Assembly (NCBI RefSeq): GCF_039645565.1
Contig: NZ_CP147914.1
Location: 1,113,573 to 1,177,572, forward strand
From: Sulfurimonas sp. HSL1-2
GTDB lineage: Bacteria > Campylobacterota > Campylobacteria > Campylobacterales > Sulfurimonadaceae
Length of the DNA: 64,000 nt
Reading direction: 5' to 3'
Shown one piece after another: positions 14,431 through 58,700 of this stretch. Below the pieces are notes generated by a model. It did not search any database. It was not told where the DNA came from and saw only the letters and a list, made by a program, of their open reading frames with translations. The stretch's first letter is position 1; the number at the start of each line of letters is the position of its first letter. The position numbers and the translations under genes were made by a program.

Positions 14431-17043
14431 ATGTTGACACTGCTTGCCGTTCTGATCATCTTTTTCCTTATCCTCGACCTCTACAAGAAGAATGGGGAGC
14501 TGCGCGAGCGGCTGGACGCGCTGGTAAAAGAGGACAAACACGAAAAACGCGAGAAGCCGGTCACGCCGATGGAAGCGGTGAAGGAAAAACTGCTCTCGCC
14601 TGCGCAGAAACCGGTGGTGGCCACAGATCACACTGCCGAAACGCGAACCCGGTCGGAAAAACCGGCCCATGCCGTCCCGGAAGCGCCGGAAGAGGCAAGG
14701 CCGCATGCCCCGCGGGAGGAGGCTGCGGAACCGTCGCCCTTCGCCGAAGCGCTCAACCGTTTCATCACCGGCGGCAACATGCTGGTGAAGGTCGGCGGCA
14801 TCATCTTTTTCCTGGGGCTCGTTTTCCTCGTCAAATACGCGGCCGATCACAACATGATCAGCATCGAGATGCGCCTCATCGGCATTGCGCTCGGGGCACT
14901 GGCCATTACGGGGCTGGGCTGGCGGCTGCGCGAGCGTGAAGGCTACTACGGCCTTGTTCTGCAGGCACTTGGTGTCGCCTCGTTCTACCTCGTCGTCTAC
15001 GCGTCGGCGAAGATGTACGGCCTGCTGAGCATGCCGCAGGCGTTCGTCATCATGCTGATCGTCGTTATCTGCGGCTCCCTGCTGGCCGTGGCCCAGGATG
15101 CGCTCATTTTGGCACTCTTCTCGGTTACCGGCGGTTTCCTGGTGCCGATCCTTACTTCCGACGGCAGCGGTTCGCATATAGTGCTGTTCAGCTACTACGC
15201 GATGCTCAACATCGGCATCCTGCTGATTGCCTGGTACCGCTCCTGGCGGCTGCTCAATATCGCCGGTTTCTTTTTCACCTTTGTCATCGCGACGGCCTGG
15301 GGCGTGCTCCGGTACGATCCTGCGCTCTTCGCATCGACGGAACCGTTTCTGATCTTCTTCTTTCTGCTTTACCTGGGCGTCAGTATCCTGTTTACCTCCA
15401 AGCAGCCCTTTGACGTCCGCGCGTTTATTGACGCGACGCTGGTTTTTGGGCTGCCGCTCGTCGCGTTTGCCCTGCAGGCGTCGATGATCGATCAATACGA
15501 GTACGGCGTTTTTTACAGCGCCGTGGCCGTAGGCACGCTCTACCTGGCGCTCTTCTGGCAGCTCTCGCGCCATACAAAAATGCAGATGCTGGCCGAGGCG
15601 TTCCGCGCGATCGCCGTCGTCTTTTATACCGTCGCCGTTCCCTACGCGCTCGACGACCGGATGACCGGGGCGCTCTGGGCGCTTGAAGGTGCGGCCGTCG
15701 TCTGGATCTCCTTGAAATATACCAAGCCCTATGGCGTTATTTTCGGGGTCGTACTGGAACTGGCGGCGACGCTGCTCTACCTTCTGGCGACCCTCGGCCG
15801 TCCGGCGGAGTACGCCTTTGCGAACGGGCTTTTTGCCGGGGGTGTGGTCATTGTCCTTGCGGCTTTCTTTACCGCTTTCAGGCTCTGGCGGCATAGCGAC
15901 AACGGCCGTAAAACGTCCCTGCAGACGCTCTCCTTCCTCTTCCTCGGTACCGGTTTGGCGGTGTGGCTGCTTACGGGGCTCCAGGAATCGGAGCGCAGCA
16001 GTTTCGAGCTGGGCAATGTCATGTTGATCTATACCGCGCTCAGCGCTGCCGTATTCGCCGTGGCGGCGCGCCGTCTGTCGTGGAACGCACTGGAGCAGGT
16101 CCTGCAATACTACCTACTGCTGGGGGCGGCCACCTTCGCATCGCTGTTCTACCATTACATCGATTCGCACCCTTTCGCGGGGATCGGAAGCATCGCTGTC
16201 GTCCTTTTCTTTACCGTGCACTACGGGCTGTTGTGGCGCTTCGAGTCGGGCTGGAGACTGCGGGCGCTATTGCATGTTACGGGCTTCATCATGCTCGTGC
16301 TGATCCTGTCGCGCGAGCTGCAGTACGCGGTCATGCAGTGGACGGCGGTAGAGAGTCTGGCCTTCGGTGCATTCGGCATCCTCCCGATCGCTGCGCTGCT
16401 GCTCGTGGTGCAGAAAGAGACCTTTTTCCCGCGCCTGGTCCGCGGTCAGCTGGAACATTACCGTCTGGTGGGCGGGATTACGCTCGCGACCATCCTCGGC
16501 ATCTGGGAACTCAAGGGATGCGCCTTGGACGGTGCCGTACCGTTTATGCCTTACCTGCCGCTGCTGAGCCCGCTTGATTTGCTCCAGGCGGCGGGGCTGG
16601 CGGCCTTTGTCTACTGGCTGAACCGTGTCGAAAGATTGATGAATGTACCGGAGAAGATCGCCTACAAAGCGGCCGGCATCGCGGCGTTCCTTTATGCCAC
16701 TGTCCTGCTGGGAAGGGTGGTCCATTTCTACGGGGAGGTCGCTTACACGGCCTACGCCCTCTCCGCCAGCCTTGTTTTCCAGGCGTCGCTCTCCATTTTG
16801 TGGAGCAGTATGGGGATCGCCGCCATGCTCGCCGGGAAGCTGCGGGCGGAGCGGACGGTATGGATCGCGGGGGCGGGCGTACTGGGCGTGGTCGTCCTGA
16901 AGCTCTTTGTCGTCGATCTCGCCGGCAGCGGGACGGTCGAGCGAATCGTCTCTTTCATTTCCGTGGGTGTGCTGCTGCTTCTGGTGGGCTATTTTGCGCC
17001 GATCCCGCCGGTGAGGCAGGCCGAAGCCGGGGAGGAGAAGTAG
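14431..17043 (+). CDS. DUF2339 multi-pass membrane protein
   Basis: An 870-residue protein: one N-terminal hydrophobic helix, a charged region with coiled-coil character (about 18-110), then more than twenty hydrophobic helices. The block KVGGIIFFLGLVFLVKYA, followed by GIALGALAITGLGWRLRE and VTGGFLVPILTSDGSG, marks it as DUF2339. No enzymatic motif is visible and the family has no settled function; envelope or transport roles have been suggested only by topology. The ribosome site is AGGA eight bases before the ATG. Its stop is three bases from the end of the convergent lolA. Confidence 0.88.
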   Translation: MLTLLAVLIIFFLILDLYKKNGELRERLDALVKEDKHEKREKPVTPMEAVKEKLLSPAQKPVVATDHTAETRTRSEKPAHAVPEAPEEARPHAPREEAAEPSPFAEALNRFITGGNMLVKVGGIIFFLGLVFLVKYAADHNMISIEMRLIGIALGALAITGLGWRLREREGYYGLVLQALGVASFYLVVYASAKMYGLLSMPQAFVIMLIVVICGSLLAVAQDALILALFSVTGGFLVPILTSDGSGSHIVLFSYYAMLNIGILLIAWYRSWRLLNIAGFFFTFVIATAWGVLRYDPALFASTEPFLIFFFLLYLGVSILFTSKQPFDVRAFIDATLVFGLPLVAFALQASMIDQYEYGVFYSAVAVGTLYLALFWQLSRHTKMQMLAEAFRAIAVVFYTVAVPYALDDRMTGALWALEGAAVVWISLKYTKPYGVIFGVVLELAATLLYLLATLGRPAEYAFANGLFAGGVVIVLAAFFTAFRLWRHSDNGRKTSLQTLSFLFLGTGLAVWLLTGLQESERSSFELGNVMLIYTALSAAVFAVAARRLSWNALEQVLQYYLLLGAATFASLFYHYIDSHPFAGIGSIAVVLFFTVHYGLLWRFESGWRLRALLHVTGFIMLVLILSRELQYAVMQWTAVESLAFGAFGILPIAALLLVVQKETFFPRLVRGQLEHYRLVGGITLATILGIWELKGCALDGAVPFMPYLPLLSPLDLLQAAGLAAFVYWLNRVERLMNVPEKIAYKAAGIAAFLYATVLLGRVVHFYGEVAYTAYALSASLVFQASLSILWSSMGIAAMLAGKLRAERTVWIAGAGVLGVVVLKLFVVDLAGSGTVERIVSFISVGVLLLLVGYFAPIPPVRQAEAGEEK

Positions 17044-43946: not shown

Positions 43947-43976
43947 GAGGTTGTCAAACCTCACCACTGTCATAAT
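43947..43976 (+). promoter_or_regulatory. Promoter region with inverted repeat for the guanidine operon
   Basis: CATAAT at 43971-43976 would be the -10 box, giving a transcript starting near 43983, the first bases of the riboswitch. Just upstream, GAGGTT (43947-43952) and AACCTC (43957-43962) form an inverted repeat overlapping the -35 zone. The same hexamers recur inside the riboswitch region. Confidence 0.45.
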
Positions 43977-43980
43977 AGAC

Positions 43981-44079
43981 GGCTAGGGTTCCGGCGGGTT
44001 ACCGTGTCTGGTCCGAGAGCTGTCGACCTCTTGAGTAGAGGTTACACGGAGGGATAAAAGCCCGGGAGGTTTCAACCTC
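43981..44079 (+). ncRNA. Guanidine-I riboswitch (ykkC-yxkD leader)
   Basis: The conserved blocks of the guanidine-I aptamer occur in order: CTAGGGTTCCG (43983-43993), CTGGTCCGAGAG (44008-44019), then ACACGG-A-GGGATAAAAGCCCGGGAG (from about 44044). Variable stems fall between, such as CCTC-TTGAGTA-GAGG. This RNA binds guanidinium and turns on downstream genes. The end of the aptamer runs into GAGGT-TTCA-ACCTC, which may be part of the expression platform. The gene downstream encodes the substrate-binding protein of an importer, the usual location for this class. AGGAG (44107-44111) precedes the ATG. Confidence 0.95.
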
Positions 44080-44117: not shown

Positions 44118-45188
44118 ATGAAATCTATTTTCAAATCTACCTCAAAACTCTTAGTTGCCGCTACACTGGTCATGGGCTTCGGAGCCTCCTCGCTGATGGC
44201 GGAAGTCAAAGATAAGTTTCAGGTCTCCTGGACGATCTATGTCGGATGGATGCCGTGGGATTATGCCCAGCAAAAAGGGATCATCGACAAGTGGGCCAAG
44301 AAATACGGCATCGAGATCGAAATGGTCCAGGTCAACGACTACATCGAATCAATCAACCAATATACTGCAGGAAAATTTGACGGCTGTCTGATGACAAACA
44401 TGGATGCCCTCACGATCCCGGCTGCGGGCGGCGTCGACTCTACGGCGGTCATCATGGGTGACTACTCCAACGGGAACGACGGTATCCTCCTCAAAAACAA
44501 GAAAAACCTGACTGACATCAAAGGCCAGACGGTCAACCTCGTCGAACTTTCCGTCTCTCACTACCTGCTGGCACGTGCACTTGAAACGGTCGGCATGAGC
44601 GAAAAAGACGTCAAGGTCCTCAACACTTCCGACGCCGACATGGTCGCGGCATGGGGGACGAAAGACGTGACTGCAATGACGACTTGGAACCCGCAGCTCA
44701 GCGAGATCATGGCCGGCAATAAAGATGCGAACCTCGTTTTTGACTCCAGCAAGACGCCGGGCGAAATCATCGACATGCTCGTCATCAACACTGAAACGCT
44801 CAAAGACAACCCGAAACTTGCCAAAGCGCTGACGGGTGCATGGTTCGAAGTTATGGCACTGATGAAGAAGGGCGATGAAGCGGCACTGACGTTCATGGCA
44901 CAGGCTTCCGGTACGGACCTCGCAGGCTACAAGAGCCAGCTTGACTCCACGATGATGTTCTACACGCCCTCTGACCTGCTTGCCTTTACGACGAGCGCGG
45001 AAATCCCGGCGACAATGAAAAAAGTCAGCGAGTTCTCCTTTGAGCACGGTATCCTCGGTGAAGGTGCCCCTGACGCCGAGTTCATCGGTATGGCGTTCCC
45101 GGGCGGCAAAACGTTCGGTGATCCGAAAAACATCAAGCTCCGCTTCGACGACACCTTTGTCAAAATGGCCGCCGAAGGGAAACTGTAA
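44118..45188 (+). CDS. ABC transporter substrate-binding protein, guanidine/urea type
   Basis: A 356-residue periplasmic protein with a signal peptide (MKSIFKSTSKLLVAATLVMG to about residue 28), of the NitT/TauT-like family annotated as putative urea ABC transporter binding protein. The ligand pocket region contains VSWTIYVGWMPWDYAQQKG with three Trp residues, apt for a planar cation. It directly follows the guanidine-I riboswitch, so guanidine or a guanidine derivative is the likely ligand. AGGAG precedes the ATG. The permease gene starts nine bases later. Confidence 0.9.
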   Translation: MKSIFKSTSKLLVAATLVMGFGASSLMAEVKDKFQVSWTIYVGWMPWDYAQQKGIIDKWAKKYGIEIEMVQVNDYIESINQYTAGKFDGCLMTNMDALTIPAAGGVDSTAVIMGDYSNGNDGILLKNKKNLTDIKGQTVNLVELSVSHYLLARALETVGMSEKDVKVLNTSDADMVAAWGTKDVTAMTTWNPQLSEIMAGNKDANLVFDSSKTPGEIIDMLVINTETLKDNPKLAKALTGAWFEVMALMKKGDEAALTFMAQASGTDLAGYKSQLDSTMMFYTPSDLLAFTTSAEIPATMKKVSEFSFEHGILGEGAPDAEFIGMAFPGGKTFGDPKNIKLRFDDTFVKMAAEGKL

Positions 45189-45197
45189 GGTCCTCTT

Positions 45198-46022
45198 ATG
45201 AAACGATTAATGAACCTCAGACCGTCGAAGCAGTCCCTCTTTTTCCTGGGACTGCTGCCGTTCGTCCTGGTCGCGCTCTTCTACCTTGGAGCGTCGGAAG
45301 TCCGCCTGGCGGCCAATCCGGACGACAAACTGCTGCCCTCCATGAGCAGCTTTGCCGAGGCGATCGACCGTATGGCACTCACACCGAGCAAACGGACCGG
45401 CGAATACCTCTTTGTCGAGGATACGGTCTCTTCGCTCGAGCGCCTGGGTCTCGGGGTACTCATCAGTGCCGTGCTTGCACTGCTGATGGGGATCCCGCTG
45501 GGGTTCATTCCCTTCGTTCGTGCAGGACTTTCGCCCTTCGTCGCGGCCTTCTCCATGGTGCCGCCAATGGCTATTTTGCCCATCTTATTCATCATATTCG
45601 GCATGGGTGAGCTGGCTAAAGTAGCACTGATCGTCATCGGGGTGACCCCGCTGATCGTCCGCGACCTGCAGCAGCGGGTCATGGAGATCCCGGTCGAGCA
45701 GCTCATCAAGGCGCAGACCCTGGGCGGAACGTCATGGAGCATCGTGCTGCGCGTCGTGCTGCCGCAGATCTTCCCGCGGCTGCTCGATGCGGTGCGCCTC
45801 ACGATGGGAACGGCGTGGATCTTCCTGATCTCCGCCGAGGCGATTTCGGCCACCGAAGGGCTGGGGTACCGGATCTTCCTGGTACGCCGCTACCTGTCGA
45901 TGGATGTGATCCTGCCGTATGTCGCCTGGATCACCTTCCTCGCCTTCTTATTTGATTACCTGCTCAAGCGGTTCACCTACAAGGTGTTCCCGTGGTATGA
46001 CGCAGGGAAGGAGCAGTCATGA
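45198..46022 (+). CDS. ABC transporter permease, guanidine/urea type
   Basis: A 274-residue permease of the NitT/TauT (SsuC/TauC-like) class with about six helices. The cytoplasmic EAA loop is seen near residues 170-190 (KAQTLGGTSWSIVLRVVLPQ). A periplasmic stretch (about 40-80) contains acidic residues. It forms the channel with the binding protein upstream and the ATPase, whose ATG overlaps its stop by four bases. Confidence 0.92.
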   Translation: MKRLMNLRPSKQSLFFLGLLPFVLVALFYLGASEVRLAANPDDKLLPSMSSFAEAIDRMALTPSKRTGEYLFVEDTVSSLERLGLGVLISAVLALLMGIPLGFIPFVRAGLSPFVAAFSMVPPMAILPILFIIFGMGELAKVALIVIGVTPLIVRDLQQRVMEIPVEQLIKAQTLGGTSWSIVLRVVLPQIFPRLLDAVRLTMGTAWIFLISAEAISATEGLGYRIFLVRRYLSMDVILPYVAWITFLAFLFDYLLKRFTYKVFPWYDAGKEQS

Positions 46023-46783
46023 GCCTCGTCACCGTCAAAAACCTCTGGAAAGAGTACGGCGACAACGTCGTACTGGAGAACATGAGCCTGAACATCGAAG
46101 CGGGCGAATTCTGTACGCTCGTCGGACCGTCGGGTTGCGGGAAAACAACCTTTCTGAAGATGCTGCTGGGACAGGAAAACCCGACGCGCGGCACCTTTCT
46201 GCTCGAGGGGAAACCCTTCCCGGAAGAGCCGGGTGTAGACCGCGGGATCGTTTTCCAGCGCTATTCAGTCTTTTCGCACCTGAGCGTGCTGAAAAACGTC
46301 ATGCTGGGGATCGAGTTTGAAAAAGCCCCGCTGATGGGCCGCCTTTTCGGCCAGGCCCGCAAGGAGGCCGAAGCCGAAGCGATGGCGATGCTCGAAGCCG
46401 TCGGCCTCGGCGACGCGGCGCACAAGTACCCCAGCGAACTCTCCGGGGGGATGCAGCAGCGCCTCTCCATTGCGCAGTCTCTGGTCAAAAAACCGAAGAT
46501 CCTACTGCTGGACGAACCGTTCGGCGCCCTCGACCCGGGGATCCGTGCCGATATGCACGCGCTGATCCTCGACCTGTGGAAGAAGAACAACCTTACCGTC
46601 GTCATGGTGACCCATGACCTGCACGAGGGGTTCTACCTCGGCACGCGTCTGCTGGTCTTCGACAAGGTCCGCCACGACCCGCAGGCCCCCAACGCCTACG
46701 GTGCGCGCATCACCTACGATATCCCCGTCGGGGATACGCGCGACTCCGTGCTCAAAGAGATCGACCAGACCTTCAAGGTCTGA
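46019..46783 (+). CDS. ABC transporter ATP-binding protein, guanidine/urea type
   Basis: A 254-residue ATPase. Walker A is GPSGCGKTT (36-44), signature LSGGMQQRLSIAQ, Walker B ILLLDEPFGALDPG and the H-loop VMVTHDL. It powers the importer. The C-terminus (about 215-250) is slightly extended and carries DIPVGDTRDSVLKEID. It is the last gene before the first guanidine-II riboswitch; 92 bases separate it from the next start. Confidence 0.95.
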   Translation: MSLVTVKNLWKEYGDNVVLENMSLNIEAGEFCTLVGPSGCGKTTFLKMLLGQENPTRGTFLLEGKPFPEEPGVDRGIVFQRYSVFSHLSVLKNVMLGIEFEKAPLMGRLFGQARKEAEAEAMAMLEAVGLGDAAHKYPSELSGGMQQRLSIAQSLVKKPKILLLDEPFGALDPGIRADMHALILDLWKKNNLTVVMVTHDLHEGFYLGTRLLVFDKVRHDPQAPNAYGARITYDIPVGDTRDSVLKEIDQTFKV

Positions 46784-46812: not shown

Positions 46813-46855
46813 GCCGCAGGACGACCTGCGGCATCGCGACGTCCGGGACGGCCCG
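46813..46855 (+). ncRNA. Guanidine-II riboswitch (mini-ykkC), copy 1
   Basis: Two stem-loops with ACGR tetraloops, the signature of the class: P1 GCCGCAGG (46813-46820), loop ACGA, CCTGCGGC (46825-46832); P2 CGGG (46844-46847), loop ACGG, CCCG (46852-46855). The linker is 11 bases. The GAAGGAG ribosome site (46864-46870) of the DUF1989 gene follows by eight bases, so control of translation is likely. Copy 2 at 50167 shares both loops. Confidence 0.92.
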
Positions 46856-46875: not shown

Positions 46876-47613
46876 GTGATAACTGAACACGAAAACCTGA
46901 AACCAGAATCCATCATCCTCGACGAGGTGCTCCCGGGCGGTGCGCGCTGGTCGAAGATCATCAAACGCGGCGACAAGCTGCGCATCACGACCAAGGACGG
47001 GCTGGGCACGCTCAGCGCGATGTTCTACAACGCCGATAACACCGCGGAGCGTTTCAACTCCGCCGACACGGTCAAACTTCAGCACAATGCCTACTTCTGC
47101 AAAGGGCGGGTCTTCTATTCCGAGCAGGGACGCGTCCTGCTCTCCATTACGGAAGATACGACTGAAGGTCTCTTCGATGCCATCGGCGGCATCAGCAACC
47201 CGCGCATCGTCGCGAAAAACTTCGGCGAGGGTGACTTCGAGCATATCCGCAACCGTTATTACAAAAGCGACCGCGAAAACTTCCTCGTCGAACTGGGCAA
47301 ATACGGCATGGGCAAACGCGACATGATCCAGGCAATCAACTTCTTCAGACGGGTCGACGTCAAAGAGGGCAACAAGCTGGCACTTTCCGAAAGACGTCCG
47401 CAGCCTTTGAGTTACATCGAGCTGCGTGCGGAGATGAACGTCCTGCTGGTGCTCTCCAACACGCCGCATGTCATGGAAACGGGAACATACAACCCCAGCG
47501 ACGTCCAGCTGACGCTGTTTAAAGCGGCCCCGGTCACCGAAGATGATTACTGCATGAACTTCAGTATCCAGTCCAAACGTGCGTTCCAGAACAACGCACG
47601 CTATTTTGCCTGA
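46876..47613 (+). CDS. DUF1989 protein, carboxyguanidine deiminase subunit (urea carboxylase-associated protein 1)
   Basis: A 245-residue DUF1989 protein, of the type long annotated as urea carboxylase-associated and more recently shown to form a deiminase with its partner that converts carboxyguanidine to allophanate and ammonia (CgdAB). The core contains GGARWSKIIKRGDKLRITT, FYNADNTAERFNSADT and ELRAEMNVLLVLSNTPH, the DUF1989 pattern. GTG start at 46876, five bases after GAAGGAG. Directly under a guanidine-II riboswitch. Eleven bases to its partner gene. Confidence 0.9.
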   Translation: MITEHENLKPESIILDEVLPGGARWSKIIKRGDKLRITTKDGLGTLSAMFYNADNTAERFNSADTVKLQHNAYFCKGRVFYSEQGRVLLSITEDTTEGLFDAIGGISNPRIVAKNFGEGDFEHIRNRYYKSDRENFLVELGKYGMGKRDMIQAINFFRRVDVKEGNKLALSERRPQPLSYIELRAEMNVLLVLSNTPHVMETGTYNPSDVQLTLFKAAPVTEDDYCMNFSIQSKRAFQNNARYFA

Positions 47614-47623
47614 GGAGCGCGTG

Positions 47624-48244
47624 ATGAAAAGAGATATCGAAACAGCCGTTTACAACCACAAACTGCCGGCGGGCGTGCCGTGGAGCTACGTCGTGAAAAA
47701 AGGCCAGACGCTGCGTATCGTCGACCTTGAGGGGTGCCAGGCCGTCGACACGCTGTTTTACAATGCCAATGATCACGAAGAGCGCTACTCTGCCAACGAT
47801 ACGATCCGCGAACAGGGGAGCATCTTCGTTACGACGGGTACCCAGCTGATCTCCACCGACGACAACGTCATGATGACGATCACCGACGATACCTGCGGCA
47901 ACCACGATACCCTGGGCGGCCACTGCAGCGCGGAGAGCAACACCGTGCGCTACGGCCACAATACGAAGTACATGCACAGCTGCCGCGACAACTACCTGTT
48001 CGAGATCGGCGAGCGCGAGATGGACCCGCGCGACCTCACGAACAACATCAACTTCTTCATGAACGTGCCGATCGAGGAGAACGGTTTCCTGATCATCGTC
48101 GACGGGATCTCCAAACCGGGAGACTACGTCGATATGAAAGCGGAGATGGACACGCTGGTGCTGATCTCGAACTGCCCGCAGCTCAACAACCCGTGCAACG
48201 CGTTCAACCCGACGCCGATCCAGCTGATCGTCTGGGACGACTGA
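47624..48244 (+). CDS. DUF1989 protein, carboxyguanidine deiminase subunit (urea carboxylase-associated protein 2)
   Basis: A 206-residue DUF1989 protein, the partner of the one above. It keeps the probable metal site: ADTLFYNANDHEERYSAND, DDTCGNHDTLGGHCSAES with Cys and two His, and MHSCRDNYLFE; in the first subunit these Cys/His residues are absent, so this subunit is probably catalytic and the other structural. That is an inference from residues only. GAGGAG lies six bases before the ATG at 47624. Confidence 0.9.
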   Translation: MKRDIETAVYNHKLPAGVPWSYVVKKGQTLRIVDLEGCQAVDTLFYNANDHEERYSANDTIREQGSIFVTTGTQLISTDDNVMMTITDDTCGNHDTLGGHCSAESNTVRYGHNTKYMHSCRDNYLFEIGEREMDPRDLTNNINFFMNVPIEENGFLIIVDGISKPGDYVDMKAEMDTLVLISNCPQLNNPCNAFNPTPIQLIVWDD

Positions 48245-48248
48245 GACG

Positions 48249-49262
48249 ATGAAAAAGACGACACGGCTTCTGCGCTTCGAAGATGCATGGCTGCCGAACC
48301 TGGCGGCATGGGCCTATATGCTCGGCGCCTACGTGGGCGGTTTTGCCGCCATCATGGCCGACGCGCTGTGGCTCAACGCCGCCGGGGTGCTTCTGCTGGC
48401 ACACGGCATGGTCATCGCCGCGTACTTTATCCACGAGTGCGCCCACGATTCACTCTTCAGGCTGCCGATCAACAACCACCGTTTCGGAGAGGTATTGCTC
48501 TGGATCTGCGGCGCGTCGTACAGTGATTACGAGGCGATACGGATGAAGCATGTCCGCCATCACTTGGACCGTGCCGATGTCGTCTCGTTCGATTTCCGCA
48601 CCCGCCTGCCCCACTACCCGAAACTGCTCAAGACGATCCAGGTTTTGGAGTGGTTCTACATTCCCGCCCTCGAGATCATGATGCACGCCCTGGTCGTGAT
48701 TCTTCCGTTCATGAAGGAGAGCCGCCGCTATCTTCGCCGCCGCGTCGTTACGGTACTCGTGCTGCGCATCGCTTTCTTTGCCGCACTGGCGTCGATTGCG
48801 CCGAAAGTGTTGCTGCTCTACCCGTTGGCGTACATGATCTTCCTGACGGTCATGCGTTTCATGGACGTGCATCAGCACACCTATGACGTGCATGAAACGC
48901 TGGATTTTTCGCGCGAAGCGCAAGTGAAACAGTATGACCGCGCCTTCGAATCGCGCAACACCTATTCGAACCTGTTTTCTGAAAAATACCCGTGGCTGAA
49001 CCTGCTGGTTCTCAATTTCGCGTACCACAACGTTCACCACGATCAGCAGATCCAGCCGTGGTACCGGCTGCCGGGGCTGCATGCCAAGCTCTACGGCGAC
49101 GACAGGACGCAGGTCCTGATGTTCTCCGACCTGGCGCGCAGCTACCACCGCTACCGTGTCGCGCGGGTCCTCAACGGGGACCCGGCCGACCTTGACGTCA
49201 GGCACGACGGGGGCCGCACCTTTATCGGGGTGGACGGCGTCTCGTTCCTGACGGCGCACTGA
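48249..49262 (+). CDS. Membrane di-iron fatty acid desaturase-family protein
   Basis: A 337-residue membrane protein of the desaturase/hydroxylase superfamily. Its three histidine boxes are complete: HECAH (62-66), HVRHH (101-105) and HNVHH (260-264), with extra histidines in DVHQHTYDVHE (208-215). At least four hydrophobic helices surround them. Relatives desaturate acyl chains or hydroxylate alkanes and other small molecules using O2. Nothing in guanidine degradation needs it, yet it lies four bases after the deiminase gene, inside the riboswitch-controlled unit. It could oxidise a substituted guanidine to release guanidine, or modify lipid. Function unknown. Confidence 0.82.
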   Translation: MKKTTRLLRFEDAWLPNLAAWAYMLGAYVGGFAAIMADALWLNAAGVLLLAHGMVIAAYFIHECAHDSLFRLPINNHRFGEVLLWICGASYSDYEAIRMKHVRHHLDRADVVSFDFRTRLPHYPKLLKTIQVLEWFYIPALEIMMHALVVILPFMKESRRYLRRRVVTVLVLRIAFFAALASIAPKVLLLYPLAYMIFLTVMRFMDVHQHTYDVHETLDFSREAQVKQYDRAFESRNTYSNLFSEKYPWLNLLVLNFAYHNVHHDQQIQPWYRLPGLHAKLYGDDRTQVLMFSDLARSYHRYRVARVLNGDPADLDVRHDGGRTFIGVDGVSFLTAH

Positions 49263-49272
49263 AGGAGTCAAC

Positions 49273-50055
49273 ATGACCCAGGTAAAGAAGTTCTGGCCCA
49301 TTCTCACCGGCACCCACCGCTATGAAAAAACCCTTTCGACGCGGGGACATGGACAGGGAATCATCATAACTGCTCCAATTTTAAGCTATTTGATCGAAAC
49401 AGCCCACGGTCGGATACTGTATGATGTCGGCTGTGACTACTCCAAGATCGCCGACGACGTGAAACGCAAAAAGTTTTACGAGCACGAGGGGTTTCCCTTC
49501 GGGCCGCCGACGATGGAGGAGGAGCAGCGTCTTCCCAACCGCCTGGCCGAACTGGGATTGCAAGCGGAGGATATCGACGTCGTCTTCTGCGGCCACCTTC
49601 ACTTTGACCATGCGGGCGGGGTGTGTGAGTTCTGTGGTGCCGAGGTGCACGTACACGAGAAAGAGCTCGAAGCGGCCAACGCGCTGGCGGACGAAGCCTA
49701 TTTCAAAGAGGATTTCGACTGCCCGGTCAACTGGCGCGTCTATAAGGGCGATTACGACCTCGTCCCCGGTGTGCGCGCCATCGAGACCCCCGGCCATACG
49801 GCCGGGCACATGTCGATGATGATCGAACTGCCCAAAGGGCCCCCGATCCTGCTCTGCGGCGACGCGGCCGACCTGCAGGAGAATCTCGAACAGGAGATCG
49901 TCCCGGGGCTGTGTTGGCAGGATCGTGAAGACATGGCGCTTGACAGTATCAAGAAACTCAAACACCTCGCAAAGGAGACGGGGGCCGAACTGTGGCCCAA
50001 CCACGATATCAAGTTCTTCGAAAGCAAGAACCGCTTTCCGCGGTTCTTTCATTGA
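49273..50055 (+). CDS. Metallo-beta-lactamase-fold hydrolase, N-acyl-homoserine-lactonase-like
   Basis: A 260-residue MBL-fold enzyme with the zinc motif GHLHFDHAGG (His108, His110, Asp112, His113) and further ligands in TPGHTAGHMS and LCGDAADL. Overall resemblance is to AHL lactonase-like hydrolases (AttM/AiiA group), which open lactone rings. The substrate here is unknown. The gene starts 10 bases after the desaturase-family gene and is the last before an intrinsic terminator, so the two probably work together. Confidence 0.85.
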   Translation: MTQVKKFWPILTGTHRYEKTLSTRGHGQGIIITAPILSYLIETAHGRILYDVGCDYSKIADDVKRKKFYEHEGFPFGPPTMEEEQRLPNRLAELGLQAEDIDVVFCGHLHFDHAGGVCEFCGAEVHVHEKELEAANALADEAYFKEDFDCPVNWRVYKGDYDLVPGVRAIETPGHTAGHMSMMIELPKGPPILLCGDAADLQENLEQEIVPGLCWQDREDMALDSIKKLKHLAKETGAELWPNHDIKFFESKNRFPRFFH

Positions 50056-50166: not shown

Positions 50167-50209
50167 CTGTGCTGGACGACCTGCACAGGTATCCGAACGG
50201 GACGGCCCG
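50167..50209 (+). ncRNA. Guanidine-II riboswitch (mini-ykkC), copy 2
   Basis: P1: CTGTGC (50167-50172), a T-T mismatch, GG, loop ACGA (50176-50179), CC and GCACAG (50183-50188). P2: CGGG (50198-50201), loop ACGG, CCCG (50206-50209). The loops and the P2 stem are identical to copy 1, while P1 sequence differs but keeps pairing, as expected for a real RNA. The ribosome site GAGGAAGAG and the carboxylase ATG (50233) follow. Confidence 0.92.
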
Positions 50210-50232: not shown

Positions 50233-53200
50233 ATGTTTAAAAAAGTTTTGATTGCCAATCGTGGTGAGATCGCCTGCCGCGTTATCCGTACTCTCAAACA
50301 GATGGGAATCGGCTCCGTCGCCGTCTATACGGGTGCCGATACCGACTCCCTCCACGTCAGCCTTGCCGACGAAGCCTACTACATCGGTCACGGCGTTGCC
50401 AGCGAGAGCTACCTCGACGCTGCCAAGATCCTTGACATTGCGAAGCAGAGCGGCGCCGAAGCGGTCCACCCCGGCTACGGTTTTCTGAGCGAAAACGCGG
50501 CGTTTGCCAGCGCCTGCGAAGCGGCGGGGATCGCCTTTATCGGTCCGCGCACGGAGCACATGGAGAAGTTCGGTCTCAAGCACACGGCCCGCGCCCTGGC
50601 CGAGGCGAACAACGTTCCCCTCCTGCCGGGCTCCTCGCTGCTGGCCGACCTGGACGAAGCGAAAAGTGAAGCGGTGCGCATCGGCTACCCGGTCATGCTT
50701 AAAAGTACCGCCGGCGGCGGCGGGATCGGGATGCAGCTCTGTTTTGACGAAGTGCAGCTGCTGAGTGCTTACGACTCCGTCAAGCGCCTCAGCGAAAACA
50801 ACTTCTCTGATGGCGGGATGTTCCTGGAAAAATACGTTGCACATGCGCGCCACATCGAAGTACAGGTCTTCGGGGACGGCGAGGGCTTCGTCGCGACGCT
50901 GGGCGACCGCGACTGTTCCGTCCAGCGCCGCAACCAGAAGGTGATCGAGGAGACCCCGGCCCCCGGGATTTCCGACGAAACGCGTCAGGCCCTCTACAAG
51001 GCAGCGCAAGAGCTGACGGCCTCCGTATCCTACCGTTCCGCCGGGACGGTCGAGTTCGTCTACGACACCGACAGCGGCGAATTTTACTTCCTCGAGGTCA
51101 ACACCCGCCTGCAGGTCGAGCACGGTATTACCGAAGAGGTCACCGGCGTTGACCTCGTCGAGTGGATGATCCGCACGGCTGCCGGCGAGAACCCGGCGCT
51201 CTATGACTACGCCCACAACCCGCAGGGCCACGCCATCCAGGTACGCGTCTACGCCGAAGACCCGATGAAGAACTTCCAGCCCAGCTCCGGCGTGCTGACG
51301 AACGTCGCCTTCGCCGATGGGATCCGCTGCGACACCTTTATCGAAACGGGGCTCGAAGTCTCCTCCTTCTACGACCCGATGATCGCCAAGCTCATCGTCA
51401 AGGGCAACGACCGCAGCGACGCGCTTGCCAAGATCGGCGCTGCCATTGGCGGCACCCGCATTGACGGCATCGAGACGAACCTCCGTTACCTCGGGGCCAT
51501 CGTCGCCTCCGAGGTCTTTGTACAGGGCAAACAGACGACGAAGTACCTCGACGGCTTCAGCTTTACCCCCAGGAGCATCGACGTCCTGCGTCCGGGAACT
51601 CAGACGACGATCCAGGACTACCCTGGCCGCAGCGGCTACTGGGACATCGGTGTCCCGCCATCGGGTCCATTTGACAGCTTCAGTTTCCGCTACGCCAACC
51701 GGCTTGTCGGCAACAGCGAAGCGGCGGCGGGCCTCGAGATCGCCATCGCCGGGCCGACACTGCGCTTCAACACCGACAGCGTCGTCGCGCTCTGCGGCGC
51801 ACAGATCGACGCATTTATCGACAACGAACCGGTCGCGATGAACGAGGCACTCCCGGTCAAAGCGGGCAGCGTGCTCAAACTGAAAAAAGTCCACAACGAA
51901 GGGTTCCGCACCTACCTGGCCGTGCGCGGCGGGTTCGACGTTCCCGAGTACCTCGGCAGCCGCTCGACCTTTACCCTGGGGCAGTTCGGCGGTCACGCGG
52001 GACGTACCCTCGTTCCGGGTGACGTCCTGCACATCGATACGATGACGGAGGGCGACGCGGCCGTAGCCCCGGCAGAGCCGCGCAACGGGCTGGCGAATAC
52101 CTGGGAGATCGGCGTGCTCTACGGACCGCACGGCGCCCCGGACTTCTTCACGGATGACGATATCGAGACCTTCTTTGCGACGGAGTGGGAGATCCACTAC
52201 AACTCCAACCGTACGGGTATCCGCCTCATCGGCCCCAAACCACAGTGGGCGCGTACAGACGGCGGCGAGGCGGGGCTGCACCCCTCCAACATCCACGACA
52301 ACGCCTACGCGATCGGCGCCGTGGACTTCACCGGCGACATGCCGGTCATCCTCGGCCCCGACGGCCCGAGCCTCGGCGGTTTCGTCTGCCCGGTGACGAT
52401 CGTCAGCGCCGAGCTCTGGAAGATGGGGCAGCTGCGCGCGGGTGACAAGGTGAAATTCGTCCCGGTCGAACATGACACGGCGATGGCGATGCTCAAAGCG
52501 CAGGAAGAGGCGATTGCAACCCTCTCAACCTACGACGAACGCCCCTTCCTAGACCCCAAACCGATCGGTTCGCCGATCCTCTTCGCCGATGAGGCGAAGG
52601 GCGACCTTCCGGCCATGGTCATCCGCCAGTCCGGCGACGCGAACCTTCTCGTCGAGTATGGCGAGATGCAGCTTGACATCGAGCTGCGCTTCCGCGCCCA
52701 TGTACTGATGGAGGCGATGAAGGAGGAGGCCTTCGAGGGCGTCACCGACATCACTCCGGGCATCCGCTCGCTGCAGGTGCATTTCGACCCGAAGGTCTGC
52801 GACCGCGCGGCGCTCATTGAACGCCTCAAAGAGATCGAGCTGACCCTGCCGTCCATCGACGACATCGAGGTGCCGGCGCGCGTCGTACACCTGCCGCTCT
52901 CCTGGGATGATGAATCGACCCGCGTCGCCATCGACAAGTATATGAAGACGGTCCGTCCCGACGCGCCGTGGTGTCCTTCGAACATCGAGTTCATCCGCCG
53001 TATCAATGGTCTGGACTCCATCGACGAGGTCAAGAAGATCGTCTTCGGCGCCAACTACCTCGTCATGGGCCTTGGTGACGTTTACCTTGGAGCCCCTGTT
53101 GCGACGCCGCTCGACCCGCGCCACCGCCTGGTTACGACCAAGTACAACCCGGCGCGGACCTGGACCCCGGAAAACGCCGTCGGTATCGGCGGGGCCTATA

Positions 53201-53835
53201 TGTGTGTCTACGGGATGGAAGGTCCCGGCGGCTACCAGTTCGTCGGCCGTACGGTACAGATGTGGAACCGCCACCGCCAGACTCAGGACTTCAAAGAGGG
53301 CAAGCCGTGGCTGCTGCGCTTCTTTGACCAGATCAAGTTCTACGAGGTGAGTGCCGAAGAGCTGCACAAGATGCGCGAGGATTTCCCGCGCGGCCGGATG
53401 AAGCTCGACGTCGAAGAGACGACCTTCAGCCTCAAGGCGTATAAAGATTTCCTCGCCGAAAACGAGACGAGCATCAAGACCTTCAAAACGACCCAGCAGG
53501 CCGCCTTCGACGAAGAGCGCGCGATGTGGGAACGCACGGGGCTGGCGAACTTTACCTCTGAAAGCGGCGAAGTGAAAGCAGAGACGATGGAAATCATTGA
53601 GCTCGGCGAACACGACGAAGCGGTCGAGTCCCCGGTGCAGGGGAGCCTCTGGAAGGTAATGGCGAAGCTCGGCGACACGGTCGAGGAGGGCGAAGTGCTT
53701 GCCATCGCCGAATCGATGAAGATGGAAGTTGACATCGAGGCCCCCGAAGCGGGCAAGATCGTCAAGGTGCTCTGCCACGAGGGCGAGAGCGTGCATGCGG
53801 GCAAGATGCTCTTCGTCATCGAACCGCAGGCGTAG
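50233..53835 (+). CDS. Biotin-dependent guanidine/urea carboxylase
   Basis: A 1,200-residue single-chain carboxylase. Order: biotin carboxylase (1 to about 445; start [21 protein letters not shown]-grasp with [12 protein letters not shown], and [13 protein letters not shown]), KipA/AHS2-like part (about 455-760; [20 protein letters not shown]), KipI/AHS1-like part (about 765-990), and a C-terminal biotin carrier domain with biotinyl Lys1163 in AESMKMEV. It carboxylates guanidine, or urea, with bicarbonate and ATP. Context (riboswitches, DUF1989 pair) favours guanidine. It lacks the allophanate hydrolase domain of fungal urea amidolyase, which is encoded separately downstream. Confidence 0.93.
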
Positions 53836-53843
53836 GAGCGGCC

Positions 53844-54695
53844 ATGAAACTGCAGCTATATAAAACCATGTGGGGATTCGAAGGGGACTTCGAGACCGCC
53901 TGCGCCGAAGCCTCTGCGGCCGGCTTTGCCGGCATCGAAGGTCCGGCACCCGAGTCCTCCTCCCAGCGTGCCTACTGGAAGAAGTGCCTGGAGCAGTACA
54001 ACCTGCACTATATCGCAGAGGCGGTCACCGGCGGCGGTTACGTGCCGCAGCGCGATCTCGGTGTCGAAGGGCACCTGGACGACCTTAACGCGATCCTCTC
54101 CCGCAGTGCCGAACTCTCCCCGCGTTTCGTGACCTGCATCGGCGGGCTGGACGCCTGGAGCGAAGCGGAGAGTCTGCGCTTTTTCACCGAGGGGATGAAA
54201 CTGGCGGAGCGGTACGGAGTGCAGATCAGTTTCGAGACCCACCGCAGCCGGAGCCTTTTCAATCCCTGGGTAACGCGGCGCATCGTCGAAGCGCTCCCGG
54301 AGATCGCGCTCACGCTCGATATCAGCCACTGGTGCGTCGTCTGCGAACGGCAGATGGACAGCGAACCCGAAGCGATCAACGCGATCGTGCCGAACGTGAT
54401 GCATATCCATGCCCGCGTCGGTTACGACCAGGGGCCGCAGGTACCGCATCCCGCGGCGCCGGAGTACGCCTATGCGCTCAAAGCGCATCAGGGGGTCTGG
54501 GAACAGGTCTGGGACAGCCAGCGCCGCCGCGGTTTCGGGTTTACAACGATGACGCCGGAGTTCGGCCCCGACGGCTACCTCCACACGCTCCCCTTTACCA
54601 AGGCGCCGGTTGCCGATCTTTGGGAGATCAACCAGTGGATGGGCGAAACGGAACGCTTCTACTTTCAGCGTCACAAAGTAAAGGCCGTGGTATGA
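53844..54695 (+). CDS. Sugar phosphate isomerase/epimerase-like TIM-barrel protein
   Basis: A 283-residue protein of the xylose isomerase-like TIM-barrel superfamily (AP endonuclease 2 fold). Acidic and histidine metal-ligand candidates occur at strand ends: GFAGIEGPAPES, ISFETHRSRSLFNP, LTLDISHWCVV and NVMHIHARVGYDQ. Members isomerise sugars, cleave or decarboxylate small molecules; the substrate cannot be told. It is in the second riboswitch-controlled unit, eight bases after the carboxylase gene, and its stop overlaps the EamA transporter start. Confidence 0.8.
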   Translation: MKLQLYKTMWGFEGDFETACAEASAAGFAGIEGPAPESSSQRAYWKKCLEQYNLHYIAEAVTGGGYVPQRDLGVEGHLDDLNAILSRSAELSPRFVTCIGGLDAWSEAESLRFFTEGMKLAERYGVQISFETHRSRSLFNPWVTRRIVEALPEIALTLDISHWCVVCERQMDSEPEAINAIVPNVMHIHARVGYDQGPQVPHPAAPEYAYALKAHQGVWEQVWDSQRRRGFGFTTMTPEFGPDGYLHTLPFTKAPVADLWEINQWMGETERFYFQRHKVKAVV

Positions 54696-55576
54696 GTTCA
54701 CATCTCCCCGTCGTCGTGCTGCTCGGCGCATCGGTCCTCTGGGGGCTTACCTGGCTGCCGCTCAAACAGATCAACGGCATGGGGATCGACGGCATCGCAC
54801 TGACGATGGGTGCCTACGGTATCCTCGCCCTTCTGCTGACGCCGCTGCTTATGGCGCAGTTCTCGCAGTGGCGCCAACACAAACGTGCTATGGCGATGAT
54901 CCTGCTCTTCGGCGGGGGCGCGAATCTTGCGTTTACCTATGCCCTCATCAACGGCGAGGTGATCCGAGTGATGGTGCTCTTCTACCTGCTGCCCGTCTGG
55001 GGCGTGCTTGGCGGGAAGTTCTTCCTGCGCGAAGGCGTCGACCTCTGGCGCTGGCTCGGTGCCGCGCTGGCGGTCACGGGCGCCTTCGTTATTCTCGGCG
55101 GGTTTGATGCCCTCGGCGGGGCCCCGTCGTGGATCGACCTGATCGCGCTGCTCTCGGGCCTGCTGTTTGCGATGAACAACCTGGTCTTCCGTGCCGCGGC
55201 AGAGGTCCCGGTCGGTTCGAAGATCACGGTGATGTTCTACGGCTGTCTGATCCTGGCAGGGGCGCTGCTCGGCCTGGGCGTGGAGCAACTCCCCTATGAT
55301 GCGGACGCCGACGCATGGCTCGCCCTGGCGGCCTACGCGGTGCTGTGGCTGCTGCTGGCCAACATCGGTTCGCAGTGGGGCGTTTCGCATATGGAAGCGG
55401 GGCGCTCCTCCATCATTATTATCATGGAGCTGATCACCGCGGTTATCTCCGCGACGCTCATTGCGGGCGAGCGGATGGACGCCATGGAGATGATCGGCGG
55501 CGTGCTGATCCTTGCTGCGGCGCTGATCGAGGCGCTGCGTACGAAAGAAGATGATCTTCCCGAGACGACGTTTTAA
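54692..55576 (+). CDS. EamA-family (DMT) transporter
   Basis: A 294-residue membrane protein with about ten helices in two EamA repeats (VVVLLGASVLWGLTWLPLK at the N-terminus; LLFAMNNLVFRAAAEVP in the second half). DMT transporters often export amino acids or amines, but the direction and substrate are unknown. ATG overlaps the stop of the TIM-barrel gene (ATGA), so the two are coupled. In this setting it could export excess guanidine or an intermediate, or import a related compound. Confidence 0.88.
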   Translation: MSSHLPVVVLLGASVLWGLTWLPLKQINGMGIDGIALTMGAYGILALLLTPLLMAQFSQWRQHKRAMAMILLFGGGANLAFTYALINGEVIRVMVLFYLLPVWGVLGGKFFLREGVDLWRWLGAALAVTGAFVILGGFDALGGAPSWIDLIALLSGLLFAMNNLVFRAAAEVPVGSKITVMFYGCLILAGALLGLGVEQLPYDADADAWLALAAYAVLWLLLANIGSQWGVSHMEAGRSSIIIIMELITAVISATLIAGERMDAMEMIGGVLILAAALIEALRTKEDDLPETTF

Positions 55577-55590
55577 GAAAGGAATACATT

Positions 55591-56922
55591 ATGACGATTT
55601 CACAACTTTTGAACGACTATAAAAGCGGTACAACGACCCCGCGCGAAGTGATGGCACAGATACGTGCGCTTATCGCGGAGCATGCGGAAAACCCTATTTT
55701 CATCCATGCGCTGAGCGAGGCGGAGACCGAACCTTACCTCGAGCGCCTTGAAAGGGTGAGTCCTGGTTCCCTGCCGCTCTACGGCGTCCCCTTTGCGATC
55801 AAGGACAACATCGACCTCGCCGGGGTCCCGACGACGGCGGCCTGTCCGGCCTACCGCTACGTTCCGGAAGCCTCCGCTTTCGTTGTCGAACGGCTGATCG
55901 AAGCGGGGGCGATCCCCGTGGGCAAAGCCAACCTCGACCAGTTTGCGACGGGGCTTGTGGGGACGCGTTCGCCTTATGGGGCCTGCCGCAACAGTATCGA
56001 TCCTTCCTATATCTCCGGAGGCTCCAGTTCCGGGAGTGCCGTCAGCGTCGCGCTGGAAATGGCGGCCTTCTCCCTGGGAACGGATACGGCGGGATCGGGC
56101 CGCGTACCGGCGGCCTTTAACAACCTCGTGGGGGTCAAGCCCTCCAAGGGGGTTCTGAGCACCTCCGGTGTCGTGCCGGCGTGCCGCAGCCTCGATTGTG
56201 TCTCAATCTTTGCCCTCAACACCGATGACGCGCAGGCTGTCTTTGATGTCGCCTGCGCCTTTGACGCCGCAGACCCTTACAGCCGTAAGATGCCGGAGAC
56301 AGCGGGTGCAGTGGAAAAAACGATGCGTTTTGCCGTGCCGCTGCCGTCCCAGCTGAAGTTCTTCGGGGACAGCGAGGCAGAAGCACTCTTCAGCGCCGCA
56401 GCGGCACGTTTCGAATCTATGGGGTATACGGCGATAGAAACCGATTTCTCGCCGATGCTCGACGCGGCAAATCTGCTCTATTCTGGTCCCTGGGTCGCGG
56501 AGCGCTATATTGCGGCCAAGCAGATCATGGACGAGCAGCCCGAAGAAGTGCTGGAGGTTACCCGTTCGATCATTGAGCAGGGTCGTGAGAAGAGCGCGGT
56601 GGACTATTTTGCCGCCGAGTACCGGCTCAAGGAGTACAAACGGCAGTCCGAGCTTGTACTCGAGGGGATGGATTTCGCGCTGACACCGACGACGGGAACC
56701 ATCTACACCATCGAAGCGGTCAATGCCGACCCGGTGCAGCTCAATACGAACCTCGGCTACTACACGAACTTCATGAACCTGCTTGATTTCTCGGCCTATG
56801 CCGTGCCGGCCGGTTTCCGCAGCAACGGATTACCGTTCGGCGTCACGCTGTTTGGTGATGCCTTTGAGGACCGCCGTCTGATGGAGATCGGCAAAGCGTA
56901 CGTGGAGGTGTCCCGTGGCTGA
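55591..56922 (+). CDS. atzF: Allophanate hydrolase, amidase part
   Basis: A 443-residue amidase-signature enzyme. The Ser-cisSer-Lys triad is visible: Lys71 in FAIKDNIDLAG, the SGGSSSGSA stretch (142-150), and nucleophile Ser169 in GTDTAGSGRVPA. In the AtzF family the substrate is allophanate, and the TAGSGR sequence and length fit. The usual fused C-terminal domain is missing and is encoded as the next gene, whose GTG start overlaps this stop by eight bases. Release of the final ammonia from allophanate completes the guanidine pathway. Confidence 0.9.
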   Translation: MTISQLLNDYKSGTTTPREVMAQIRALIAEHAENPIFIHALSEAETEPYLERLERVSPGSLPLYGVPFAIKDNIDLAGVPTTAACPAYRYVPEASAFVVERLIEAGAIPVGKANLDQFATGLVGTRSPYGACRNSIDPSYISGGSSSGSAVSVALEMAAFSLGTDTAGSGRVPAAFNNLVGVKPSKGVLSTSGVVPACRSLDCVSIFALNTDDAQAVFDVACAFDAADPYSRKMPETAGAVEKTMRFAVPLPSQLKFFGDSEAEALFSAAAARFESMGYTAIETDFSPMLDAANLLYSGPWVAERYIAAKQIMDEQPEEVLEVTRSIIEQGREKSAVDYFAAEYRLKEYKRQSELVLEGMDFALTPTTGTIYTIEAVNADPVQLNTNLGYYTNFMNLLDFSAYAVPAGFRSNGLPFGVTLFGDAFEDRRLMEIGKAYVEVSRG

Positions 56923-57313
56923 GACGATTAAGATCGCCGTCTGCGGTGCGCATATGCGCGGGCTGCCGCTCAATCACCAGCTGACTGCACTGGATGCAAC
57001 CTTTGTCACTGCGACGAAAACGGCCAAAGGGTACCGCCTTTACGACGTGCCTGATAAGGTGCCGCCGCGTCCGGGGATGGTGCGCGACAGCGCAGCGCAG
57101 AGTGCCGTGACACTCGAGGTCTGGTCGATGCCGCTGGAACACTTCGGCGCTTTTATGGTCCAGATCGCTTCGCCGCTCTGTATCGGCACCGTGCTGCTTG
57201 AAGACGGTAGTGCCGTTTACGGCTTTTTATGCGAGTCGGATGCCCTCAAGGGTGCCGCGGAGATCACCGCCTTCGGCGGCTGGCGGGAGTACCTCGCTTC
57301 AAAGCAGGGCTGA
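56915..57313 (+). CDS. Allophanate hydrolase C-terminal domain as separate protein
   Basis: A 132-residue protein matching the C-terminal domain of AtzF-type allophanate hydrolase, a gamma-glutamylcyclotransferase-like fold: IAVCGAHMRGLPLNHQL at the start and VLLEDGSAVYGFLCESDAL near the end. In the fused enzymes this domain decarboxylates N-carboxycarbamate made by the amidase. Here it starts on a GTG inside the end of the amidase gene, so the pair is coupled. The 172 bases after it hold an inverted repeat and the porin promoter. Confidence 0.88.
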   Translation: MAETIKIAVCGAHMRGLPLNHQLTALDATFVTATKTAKGYRLYDVPDKVPPRPGMVRDSAAQSAVTLEVWSMPLEHFGAFMVQIASPLCIGTVLLEDGSAVYGFLCESDALKGAAEITAFGGWREYLASKQG

Positions 57314-57485: not shown

Positions 57486-58700
57486 ATGAAAATGACAAAA
57501 ATGAGTTTGATGGCAGCACTGCTCCTGGGAAGCAGCGCTTTTGCATTTGAAAATACAGAAGTGGGCGGGGATGCACGTTTCTTCTATTCGACTTTTGACG
57601 GTCACGGTGCCGATCTTTTCGGTAAGGCGACAAGCACTGCTGACTTCGGTGGCCGCCTGAGCATTACGACGGATATCGATGAGATCCTCTCCGCCGGTGC
57701 GACAGGGTATGCCGTCAGTACGCTGGGCCTTGATAAAGAGATTGCCAACAACGTATGGTCCGGTGCGCATATTGACAATGCGACAGGTGATTTTTATACG
57801 ACGACCGGCTGGATCGGCGAAGCGTGGCTCTCTGCAAAACTGGGCAACACAGTCGCAAAAGCGGGCCGCATGGAACTCGATACGCCGCTGCTCTTTACGG
57901 AAACGTGGGGTATTACAGCGAACAACTTTGAAGCGGCGACGATCACCAATACGGATATCCCGGGTACGACGCTTGTCGGCGCATGGGTCGCGACAGGAAA
58001 CGGTTACTCCCAGTTCCTGCTGACAGATACGAAAGGTGAGTTCACAACCATCGGTGACCAGGGTGCGATCGCTGTCGGTGCGATCAACAACTCATTTGAA
58101 CCGCTGACGGCACAGGCGTGGTACTACGAACTGCCGGACACCGCGACGGCCTACTGGCTGCAGGCTGACCTCTCCATCGCCGGTATTGTCGCAGGTCTGC
58201 AGTATACGGACATCAACCCGAACGAGCTCATCTCCACGGCAGACGACTCCACGGCATTTGCGGCAAAACTGGGTTACGAAGGTGTCGAGAACCTCGGTAT
58301 CTATGCATCCTACTCTACCACGGATAAGGACGGTGACCAGTATATCGGGAACATCGCAACCGCACCTGGCGAAGGGTGGGGTATGCAGTCCAAGCTCTAC
58401 ACGGAAGCGTGGTGGAACTTCGGTTACGTCGGTCTGCCGGGTACGGATGCCTACAATGTCACAGCGACCTACAGCCTGCCTGAAATCGCCGATCTCGGAC
58501 TCTTCTACACGAACATCGACACCGATGGCGGAGCAGGTCTGACCTATTTTAAAAACAAGGTAAGCGAAGTCACCTTTACCGCGGCAAAATCGTTCGGCAA
58601 GCTTGATGCGCTCTTCGCGTATATCTATGCGGACGATGACGCTATCAACGACGGCGACGCCTACAACACGCTGCAGCTCTACCTCGTCTACAACTTCTAA
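57486..58700 (+). CDS. Outer-membrane porin-like beta-barrel protein
   Basis: A 404-residue protein with signal peptide (MSLMAALLLGSSAFAFE), a mature part of alternating hydrophobic strands with Gly/Asp/Thr turns, and an aromatic last residue (LQLYLVYNF), the outer-membrane barrel assembly signal. It resembles the Campylobacterota porin family (OprD-like). Substrate unknown. It lies directly downstream of the guanidine genes but across an AT-rich 172-base gap with its own promoter region, so it may belong to the locus (guanidine entry) or be a general porin. Confidence 0.82.
   Translation: MKMTKMSLMAALLLGSSAFAFENTEVGGDARFFYSTFDGHGADLFGKATSTADFGGRLSITTDIDEILSAGATGYAVSTLGLDKEIANNVWSGAHIDNATGDFYTTTGWIGEAWLSAKLGNTVAKAGRMELDTPLLFTETWGITANNFEAATITNTDIPGTTLVGAWVATGNGYSQFLLTDTKGEFTTIGDQGAIAVGAINNSFEPLTAQAWYYELPDTATAYWLQADLSIAGIVAGLQYTDINPNELISTADDSTAFAAKLGYEGVENLGIYASYSTTDKDGDQYIGNIATAPGEGWGMQSKLYTEAWWNFGYVGLPGTDAYNVTATYSLPEIADLGLFYTNIDTDGGAGLTYFKNKVSEVTFTAAKSFGKLDALFAYIYADDDAINDGDAYNTLQLYLVYNF

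Follow-up and report, generated by a model that had tools for sequence, protein, structure and literature searches.

The closest described counterpart of the system analysed here is the MgdH/MgdL pair of Vreelandella boliviensis, which lies in a guanidine-carboxylase (GCA) operon with guanidine-I and guanidine-II riboswitches and includes an O2-dependent enzyme (PMC12508155). The first step of this pair, hydroxylation of methylguanidine, is carried out by MgdH, a 2OG/Fe(II) dioxygenase of the DIOX_N/2OG-FeII_Oxy type that was obtained in soluble form on purification. N-(hydroxymethyl)guanidine is then split by MgdL, a lyase with a beta-barrel fold and the residues D49 and R51 (PMC12508155). 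The lyase is reported to be narrow for this compound, which is stable in water over an hour, and the guanidine-II riboswitch ahead of gca has the same affinity for guanidine as for methylguanidine (PMC12508155). The steps by which GCA, CgdAB and AtzF convert guanidine to ammonia and CO2 are established biochemistry (PMC12508155 and references there). Two membrane enzymes also invite comparison. GntB, an L-arginine gamma-hydroxylase, has been called a transmembrane enzyme (PMC10367076). The NCBIfam model for GntB (NF041365) matches FA_desaturase-family proteins, and by analogy GntB may serve as a precedent for members of the FA_desaturase superfamily that act on guanidino compounds. Like the protein proposed here it is a membrane enzyme hydroxylating a guanidino compound, but it acts on arginine and belongs to guanitoxin biosynthesis, and we know of no link between GntB and guanidine riboswitches. 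AlkB is a membrane di-iron hydroxylase, and its fold resembles the one predicted for our protein; however, it acts on alkanes with a rubredoxin partner, and no rubredoxin is encoded in the operon described below.

The window, i.e., the whole stretch of 64,000 nucleotides of Sulfurimonas sp. HSL1-2 DNA that was analysed, contains a guanidine-carboxylase operon of 12 genes, which carries one guanidine-I riboswitch and two of the guanidine-II class, all three scoring above the Rfam gathering score. One of its genes, DESAT, encodes a membrane protein whose guanidine link is real and recurrent and which is probably an oxygenase entry into guanidine breakdown. The elements follow one another in this order:

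43972..44070, + strand: guanidine-I riboswitch at the operon head (Rfam RF00442, 91.8 bits; same position in the related operons L009-L012)
44118..45188, + strand: ABC substrate-binding protein (SBP), guanidine/urea-carboxylase-associated (TIGR03427, 555.8 bits, above cutoff)
45198..46022, + strand: ABC permease (open reading frame, syntenic across related operons)
46019..46783, + strand: ABC ATPase (open reading frame, syntenic across related operons)
46813..46855, + strand: guanidine-II riboswitch ahead of CgdA-CgdB-DESAT-MBL (Rfam RF01068, 41.2 bits)
46876..47613, + strand: CgdA, carboxyguanidine deiminase subunit (DUF1989, UAAP1; TIGR03425 above cutoff)
47624..48244, + strand: CgdB, carboxyguanidine deiminase subunit (DUF1989, UAAP2; TIGR03424 above cutoff)
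48249..49262, + strand: DESAT, FA_desaturase-family membrane protein, proposed N-alkylguanidine hydroxylase (Pfam, histidine boxes, structural model)
49273..50055, + strand: MBL, AiiA-like hydrolase of the metallo-beta-lactamase fold (AiiA in the PDB at 4.7e-37; HLHFDH motif intact)
50168..50209, + strand: guanidine-II riboswitch ahead of GCA-TIM-EamA-AtzF (Rfam RF01068, 35.3 bits)
50233..53835, + strand: GCA, guanidine carboxylase, annotated as urea carboxylase (TIGR02712, 1923.6 bits)
53844..54695, + strand: TIM, sugar-isomerase-like TIM barrel, proposed lyase for the hydroxylated guanidine (Pfam AP_endonuc_2; slot swap with MgdL; structural model)
54668..55576, + strand: EamA transporter, cassette member (Pfam EamA, 1.7e-22)
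55591..56922, + strand: AtzF_A, amidase part of allophanate hydrolase (TIGR02713 above cutoff)
56915..57313, + strand: AtzF_C, C-terminal part of allophanate hydrolase in its own open reading frame (Pfam AH_C, 6.5e-50)

The core of the guanidine carboxylase pathway (gca, cgdA, cgdB, atzF) is thus complete in the operon, under guanidine riboswitches, and is what the window shares with the known pathway; DESAT, MBL, TIM and EamA are extras. Allophanate hydrolase is split into two overlapping reading frames (55591-57313) here and in related genomes, and is a single gene in most gammaproteobacteria seen. Just downstream of the operon lies a porin gene (57486-58700) with no riboswitch match of its own. 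In a relative, a second guanidine-I riboswitch (L137:16815-16914, - strand) directly precedes a similar outer-membrane porin gene that adjoins the operon, an arrangement that suggests a guanidine-inducible porin.

DESAT is an open reading frame of 337 amino acids with an ATG start, 4 nt past the CgdB stop. It matches the Pfam family FA_desaturase (PF00487) at E 2.2e-33 and 116.5 bits (gathering cutoff 29.7) and has all three histidine boxes complete: HECAH at 62-66, HVRHH at 101-105 and HNVHH at 260-264. The box histidines are invariant in an alignment of 30 homologues, and H52, D206 and H210 are conserved besides. The sequence-only reading had described a complete three-box desaturase/hydroxylase-family protein, placed four bases after a deiminase subunit and under the same riboswitch; both parts of that description hold, the subunit being CgdB and the riboswitch the guanidine-II element at the head of the CgdA-CgdB-DESAT-MBL unit. 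From these motifs DESAT is predicted to be a membrane di-iron oxygenase of the three-histidine-box type, with an iron centre that would activate O2. A search of the PDB with the sequence returned nothing at E 1, and the GntB model (equivalog cutoff 380 bits) left DESAT unmatched at E 0.001. The predicted structure is of high quality (pLDDT 90.8, pTM 0.90). Above background, the Foldseek/VIA search matched it only to AlkB (8sbb, 8f6t; Z about 11 over 255 residues, 12% identity) and, with Z 18, to desaturase-like proteins that are subunits of the chloroplast FtsHi motor complex; other desaturase structures, such as SCD1, were unlisted, which excludes nothing. In a tree of 60 FA_desaturase proteins, 19 of them paralogs encoded in the same genomes, DESAT and its relatives form a separate clade with 41 members (96/94). 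The paralogs include a beta-carotene hydroxylase above its NCBIfam cutoff as well as DesA-like and GntB-like proteins.

The association of DESAT with guanidine genes extends across phyla. Of 397 genomes sampled from the same phylum, 24 have GCA and 5 have DESAT, and 5/5 DESAT genomes fall within the GCA set (hypergeometric p 5e-7, with relatedness uncorrected and counts therefore non-independent); a sixth DESAT genome of the phylum comes from the first sample of relatives. Placement of the window in this phylum, Campylobacterota, agrees with the presence of nspC, a carboxynorspermidine-synthase-like gene and a porin of a type associated with the phylum, and with the set of related genomes. All 12 operon genes stand in identical order in the four related genomes examined in full, and since this order recurs the placement of DESAT is not due to chance. 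Two short peptide patterns, run against 84,980 species genomes, hit 31 loci, mostly from Thiomicrorhabdus, Hydrogenovibrio, Thiomicrospira, Thioalkalivibrio, Nevskiales, Curvibacter-like genomes and cyanobacteria. The gene order encountered most frequently is DESAT-MBL-TIM-EamA adjoining a GCA operon; cassettes of Nevskiales and Thioalkalivibrio consist of DESAT-TIM followed by an ABC set, without MBL and EamA. The genome of locus L131 has DESAT as well (L182:1868-2866). An inner DESAT clade of 25 members (support 94/95) is entirely guanidine-linked: full-length GCA is present in every genome except those of L014, L024 and L191, and in these three a guanidine riboswitch lies directly ahead of DESAT. 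For comparison, GCA occurs in 31/369 sampled gammaproteobacteria. The neighbourhood survey, set beforehand as the test of a recurrent guanidine link, therefore came out in its favour, with 25/25 inner-clade members having either GCA in the genome or the riboswitch directly ahead. Guanidine-II riboswitches directly precede DESAT in L014, L015, L016, L024, L031 and L165, guanidine-I does so in L191, and guanidine-I lies ahead of an SBP-DESAT unit in L032 and L192.

Several further features of these loci were recorded. In the L033 genome another DESAT, separate from the one that accompanies a creatininase, directly follows a TIM gene (L212; genome G439, contig C244). A NikR-like protein (RHH_1 + NikR_C) recurs in gammaproteobacterial GCA operons (L015:2339-2821, L023:15014, L028:17171 and others); we know of no nickel requirement in the guanidine carboxylase pathway. 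Also recurrent in GCA operons, with or without DESAT, is a pair formed by a creatininase-family protein below the creatininase cutoff and a type III glutamine synthetase (L013:13773-15947, L118, L119, L128, L132). This pair was considered as part of the DESAT cassette and set aside, since it also occurs in the DESAT-less GCA operons L118, L120, L128 and L132. In L041 (16508-19771), a gene of the creatininase family that lies near DESAT and MgdL has a Rieske oxygenase on either side, both similar to glycine-betaine monooxygenase. A non-exhaustive literature search found no desaturase-like protein described in a guanidine operon; the 'desaturase' of a 2007 metagenome riboswitch paper goes with a B12 riboswitch.

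The second line of evidence is the company of MgdL. Synteny with a 2OG dioxygenase and matching D49/R51 positions identify the MgdH-MgdL pair in our loci at L158, where GCA is accompanied by a DIOX_N/2OG-FeII_Oxy protein and by a 225-residue protein with D49 and R51 at the published positions. MgdL homologues with the D-x-R motif kept occur in the DESAT clusters of L036, L038, L040, L041, L191, L192 and L193/L025, and those of the cyanobacteria L038, L040 and L041 (E 1e-11 to 2e-16) are the HRI1-like proteins beside DESAT. The Curvibacter-type cassette ends in an MgdL homologue, intact in L036 and also present in L032 and L192; the L032 copy (15930-16532) has one in-frame stop, and the L036 copy is open. 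Two gammaproteobacteria have the order DESAT-MBL-MgdL-EamA, in which MgdL stands where TIM stands in the window-type cassette. In L191 this order lies on a single contig; for L193/L025 we infer it by joining two contigs of one genome, each of which holds MBL sequence. MgdL is a rare gene overall, being found in 2/292 cyanobacteria (a count that includes the centre genome) and 5/274 gammaproteobacteria. Among 29 DESAT genomes, 16 have TIM, eight have MgdL and one has both (Fisher p 0.01, kinship uncorrected). The single genome with both is that of Drouetiella, where TIM lies near one DESAT (L039) and MgdL near a second (L040). MgdH and DESAT were found together in none of the loci examined.

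A search of the window's own genome found no MgdL, so the lyase step there would rest on TIM, by analogy with the slot that the two proteins exchange. The TIM model (pLDDT 92.4) has an epimerase fold and matches ketose 3-epimerases, IolE, AsbF and C-glycoside-cleaving enzymes, with no PDB match by sequence at 0.01. Residues E131, D159, H187/H189 and E239 are placed like the metal site of the superfamily and may bind a metal. The other partner, MBL, resembles AiiA and retains an intact HxHxDH motif, and the cassette encodes no electron donor of the ferredoxin or rubredoxin kind. In a sister group of operons (L137-L140), CgdB directly adjoins MBL, and MBL, TIM and EamA are kept in the absence of DESAT; inspection of these loci revealed no oxygenase in its stead between CgdB and MBL. 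Their MBLs nest among DESAT-linked MBLs in the MBL tree, which argues that DESAT was lost. The retention of MBL and TIM, with EamA, implies another use without the oxygenase, and one might speculate that they act, e.g., on spontaneous guanidine-aldehyde adducts. In Luminiphilus/HTCC2080 relatives the partner of DESAT is a distant homologue of TIM (22%), the genome has no GCA (L034:9941-14427), and the pair faces a large gene that, by appearance only, looks like a sarcosine/dimethylglycine dehydrogenase. No guanidine link was found for the DESAT relatives of Gloeothece and LEGE 11386. In what may be a natural-product cluster on a Gloeothece plasmid (L008:11899-16567), the DESAT relative lies with genes for a tryptophan halogenase, an acetyltransferase and an ectoine-synthase-like protein.

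Taken at somewhat better than even confidence, our reading is that DESAT hydroxylates the carbon attached to the guanidino nitrogen of a small N-alkyl guanidine, in the likeliest case the CH3 of methylguanidine, and that a lyase (MgdL where present, otherwise TIM) frees guanidine for breakdown. The substrate would be taken up by the ABC system and perhaps by EamA too. DESAT would then hydroxylate the N-CH3 group with O2 and two electrons from a donor encoded outside the cassette. The product would be a carbinolamine, for instance N-(hydroxymethyl)guanidine, and TIM, or MgdL in other species, would cleave it to guanidine and formaldehyde or another aldehyde. Guanidine would subsequently be carboxylated by GCA, deiminated by CgdAB and hydrolysed by AtzF to CO2 and ammonia. 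Because the guanidine released would feed these enzymes, the cassette would widen the nitrogen sources of the guanidine-carboxylase operon. DESAT is best read as a non-homologous counterpart of MgdH, membrane-bound and of the FA_desaturase family instead of soluble, with a TIM barrel in the window where the described system has MgdL. Tentatively, and at less than even confidence, guanidino N-dealkylation may have evolved a second time from unrelated parts, DESAT replacing MgdH and TIM replacing MgdL, with mosaic versions that take in creatinine too.

A creatininase above the TIGR04448 cutoff (298-379 bits; CREATININASE) lies in the DESAT cluster of the cyanobacterial and Curvibacter-type loci L032, L033, L036, L038 and L041, and several of these also have isochorismatase-type amidases along with short-chain dehydrogenases (SDRs). 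Some lineages may therefore use a substrate larger than methylguanidine, namely creatine or creatinine, or else methylguanidine that stems from one of these two compounds. Were creatine or creatinine the substrate itself, DESAT would hydroxylate the ring or the glycine CH2 (giving 5-hydroxycreatinine, 'creatol'), and creatininase, the amidase, MBL and the SDRs would open this product and break it down into (methyl)guanidine and either glyoxylate or oxalate. Creatol and N-methylguanidine are reported to arise from creatinine without an enzyme (PMC3775425). However, the Campylobacterota DESAT genomes searched contain no creatininase, the Thiomicrorhabdus group has only a creatininase-family protein below cutoff that is present also without DESAT, and the reported narrow specificity of MgdL for N-(hydroxymethyl)guanidine points away from this route, which we consider unlikely. 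Methylguanidine is thus the favoured substrate, and a relative of creatine or creatinine a possible one. Somewhat less unlikely, though still doubtful, is a variant compatible with hydroxylation by DESAT, in which MBL instead of TIM cleaves the product and TIM takes the released aldehyde or another intermediate. In most cassettes MBL does lie directly 3' of DESAT, and its AiiA-type metal motif is intact, but it is kept alongside MgdL in L191, L193, L036 and L192, where TIM is absent, and hence is not the substitute of MgdL; moreover, the Nevskiales and Thioalkalivibrio cassettes have TIM and lack MBL.

Two other explanations were weighed. Adjustment of membrane lipids against guanidinium stress, which the sequence-only reading had offered beside its main proposal, is consistent with the Pfam family name and the membrane topology, but we regard it as most improbable. 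DESAT falls outside the clades of DesA-like proteins, CrtR and the other lipid- and carotenoid-type FA_desaturase paralogs sampled, and scores 20.8 bits against a cutoff of 500 with the fatty-acid desaturase equivalog NF052548 (DesA/DesB). As the sole FA_desaturase of a 2.52-Mb genome it is not part of a lipid set; it strictly follows guanidine genes with catabolic partners always present, and MgdL is not the company expected of a lipid desaturase. Detoxification or modification of a guanidino natural product, with no nitrogen feeding, would suit the distant Gloeothece relatives beside halogenase and ectoine-synthase-like genes, but is rendered quite improbable by the GCA, deiminase, allophanate hydrolase and ABC uptake genes in the same riboswitch-controlled operon. 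An oxygenase role in the hydroxylation or dealkylation of a substituted guanidine, as had been proposed from the DNA alone, is supported by the guanidine and MgdL links. The suggestion of an undescribed extension of the pathway applies to the enzyme family, which is new to this recently described step; demethylation feeding guanidine carboxylase had already been described with MgdH and MgdL (PMC12508155).

If correct, the proposal would extend the reach of membrane three-histidine-box enzymes, whose substrates are commonly taken to be lipids, to the metabolism of small polar nitrogen compounds, and to our knowledge no desaturase-like membrane protein has been given an N-demethylase-type role before. 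The exchange of MgdL in the TIM slot makes the question testable with the published MgdH/MgdL assays. The proposal also bears on a question of the guanidine-riboswitch field, namely which natural compounds supply guanidine, and it predicts substrates for an uncharacterised clade of proteins that spans Campylobacterota, gammaproteobacterial sulfur oxidisers, the Comamonadaceae (Curvibacter) lineage and cyanobacteria.
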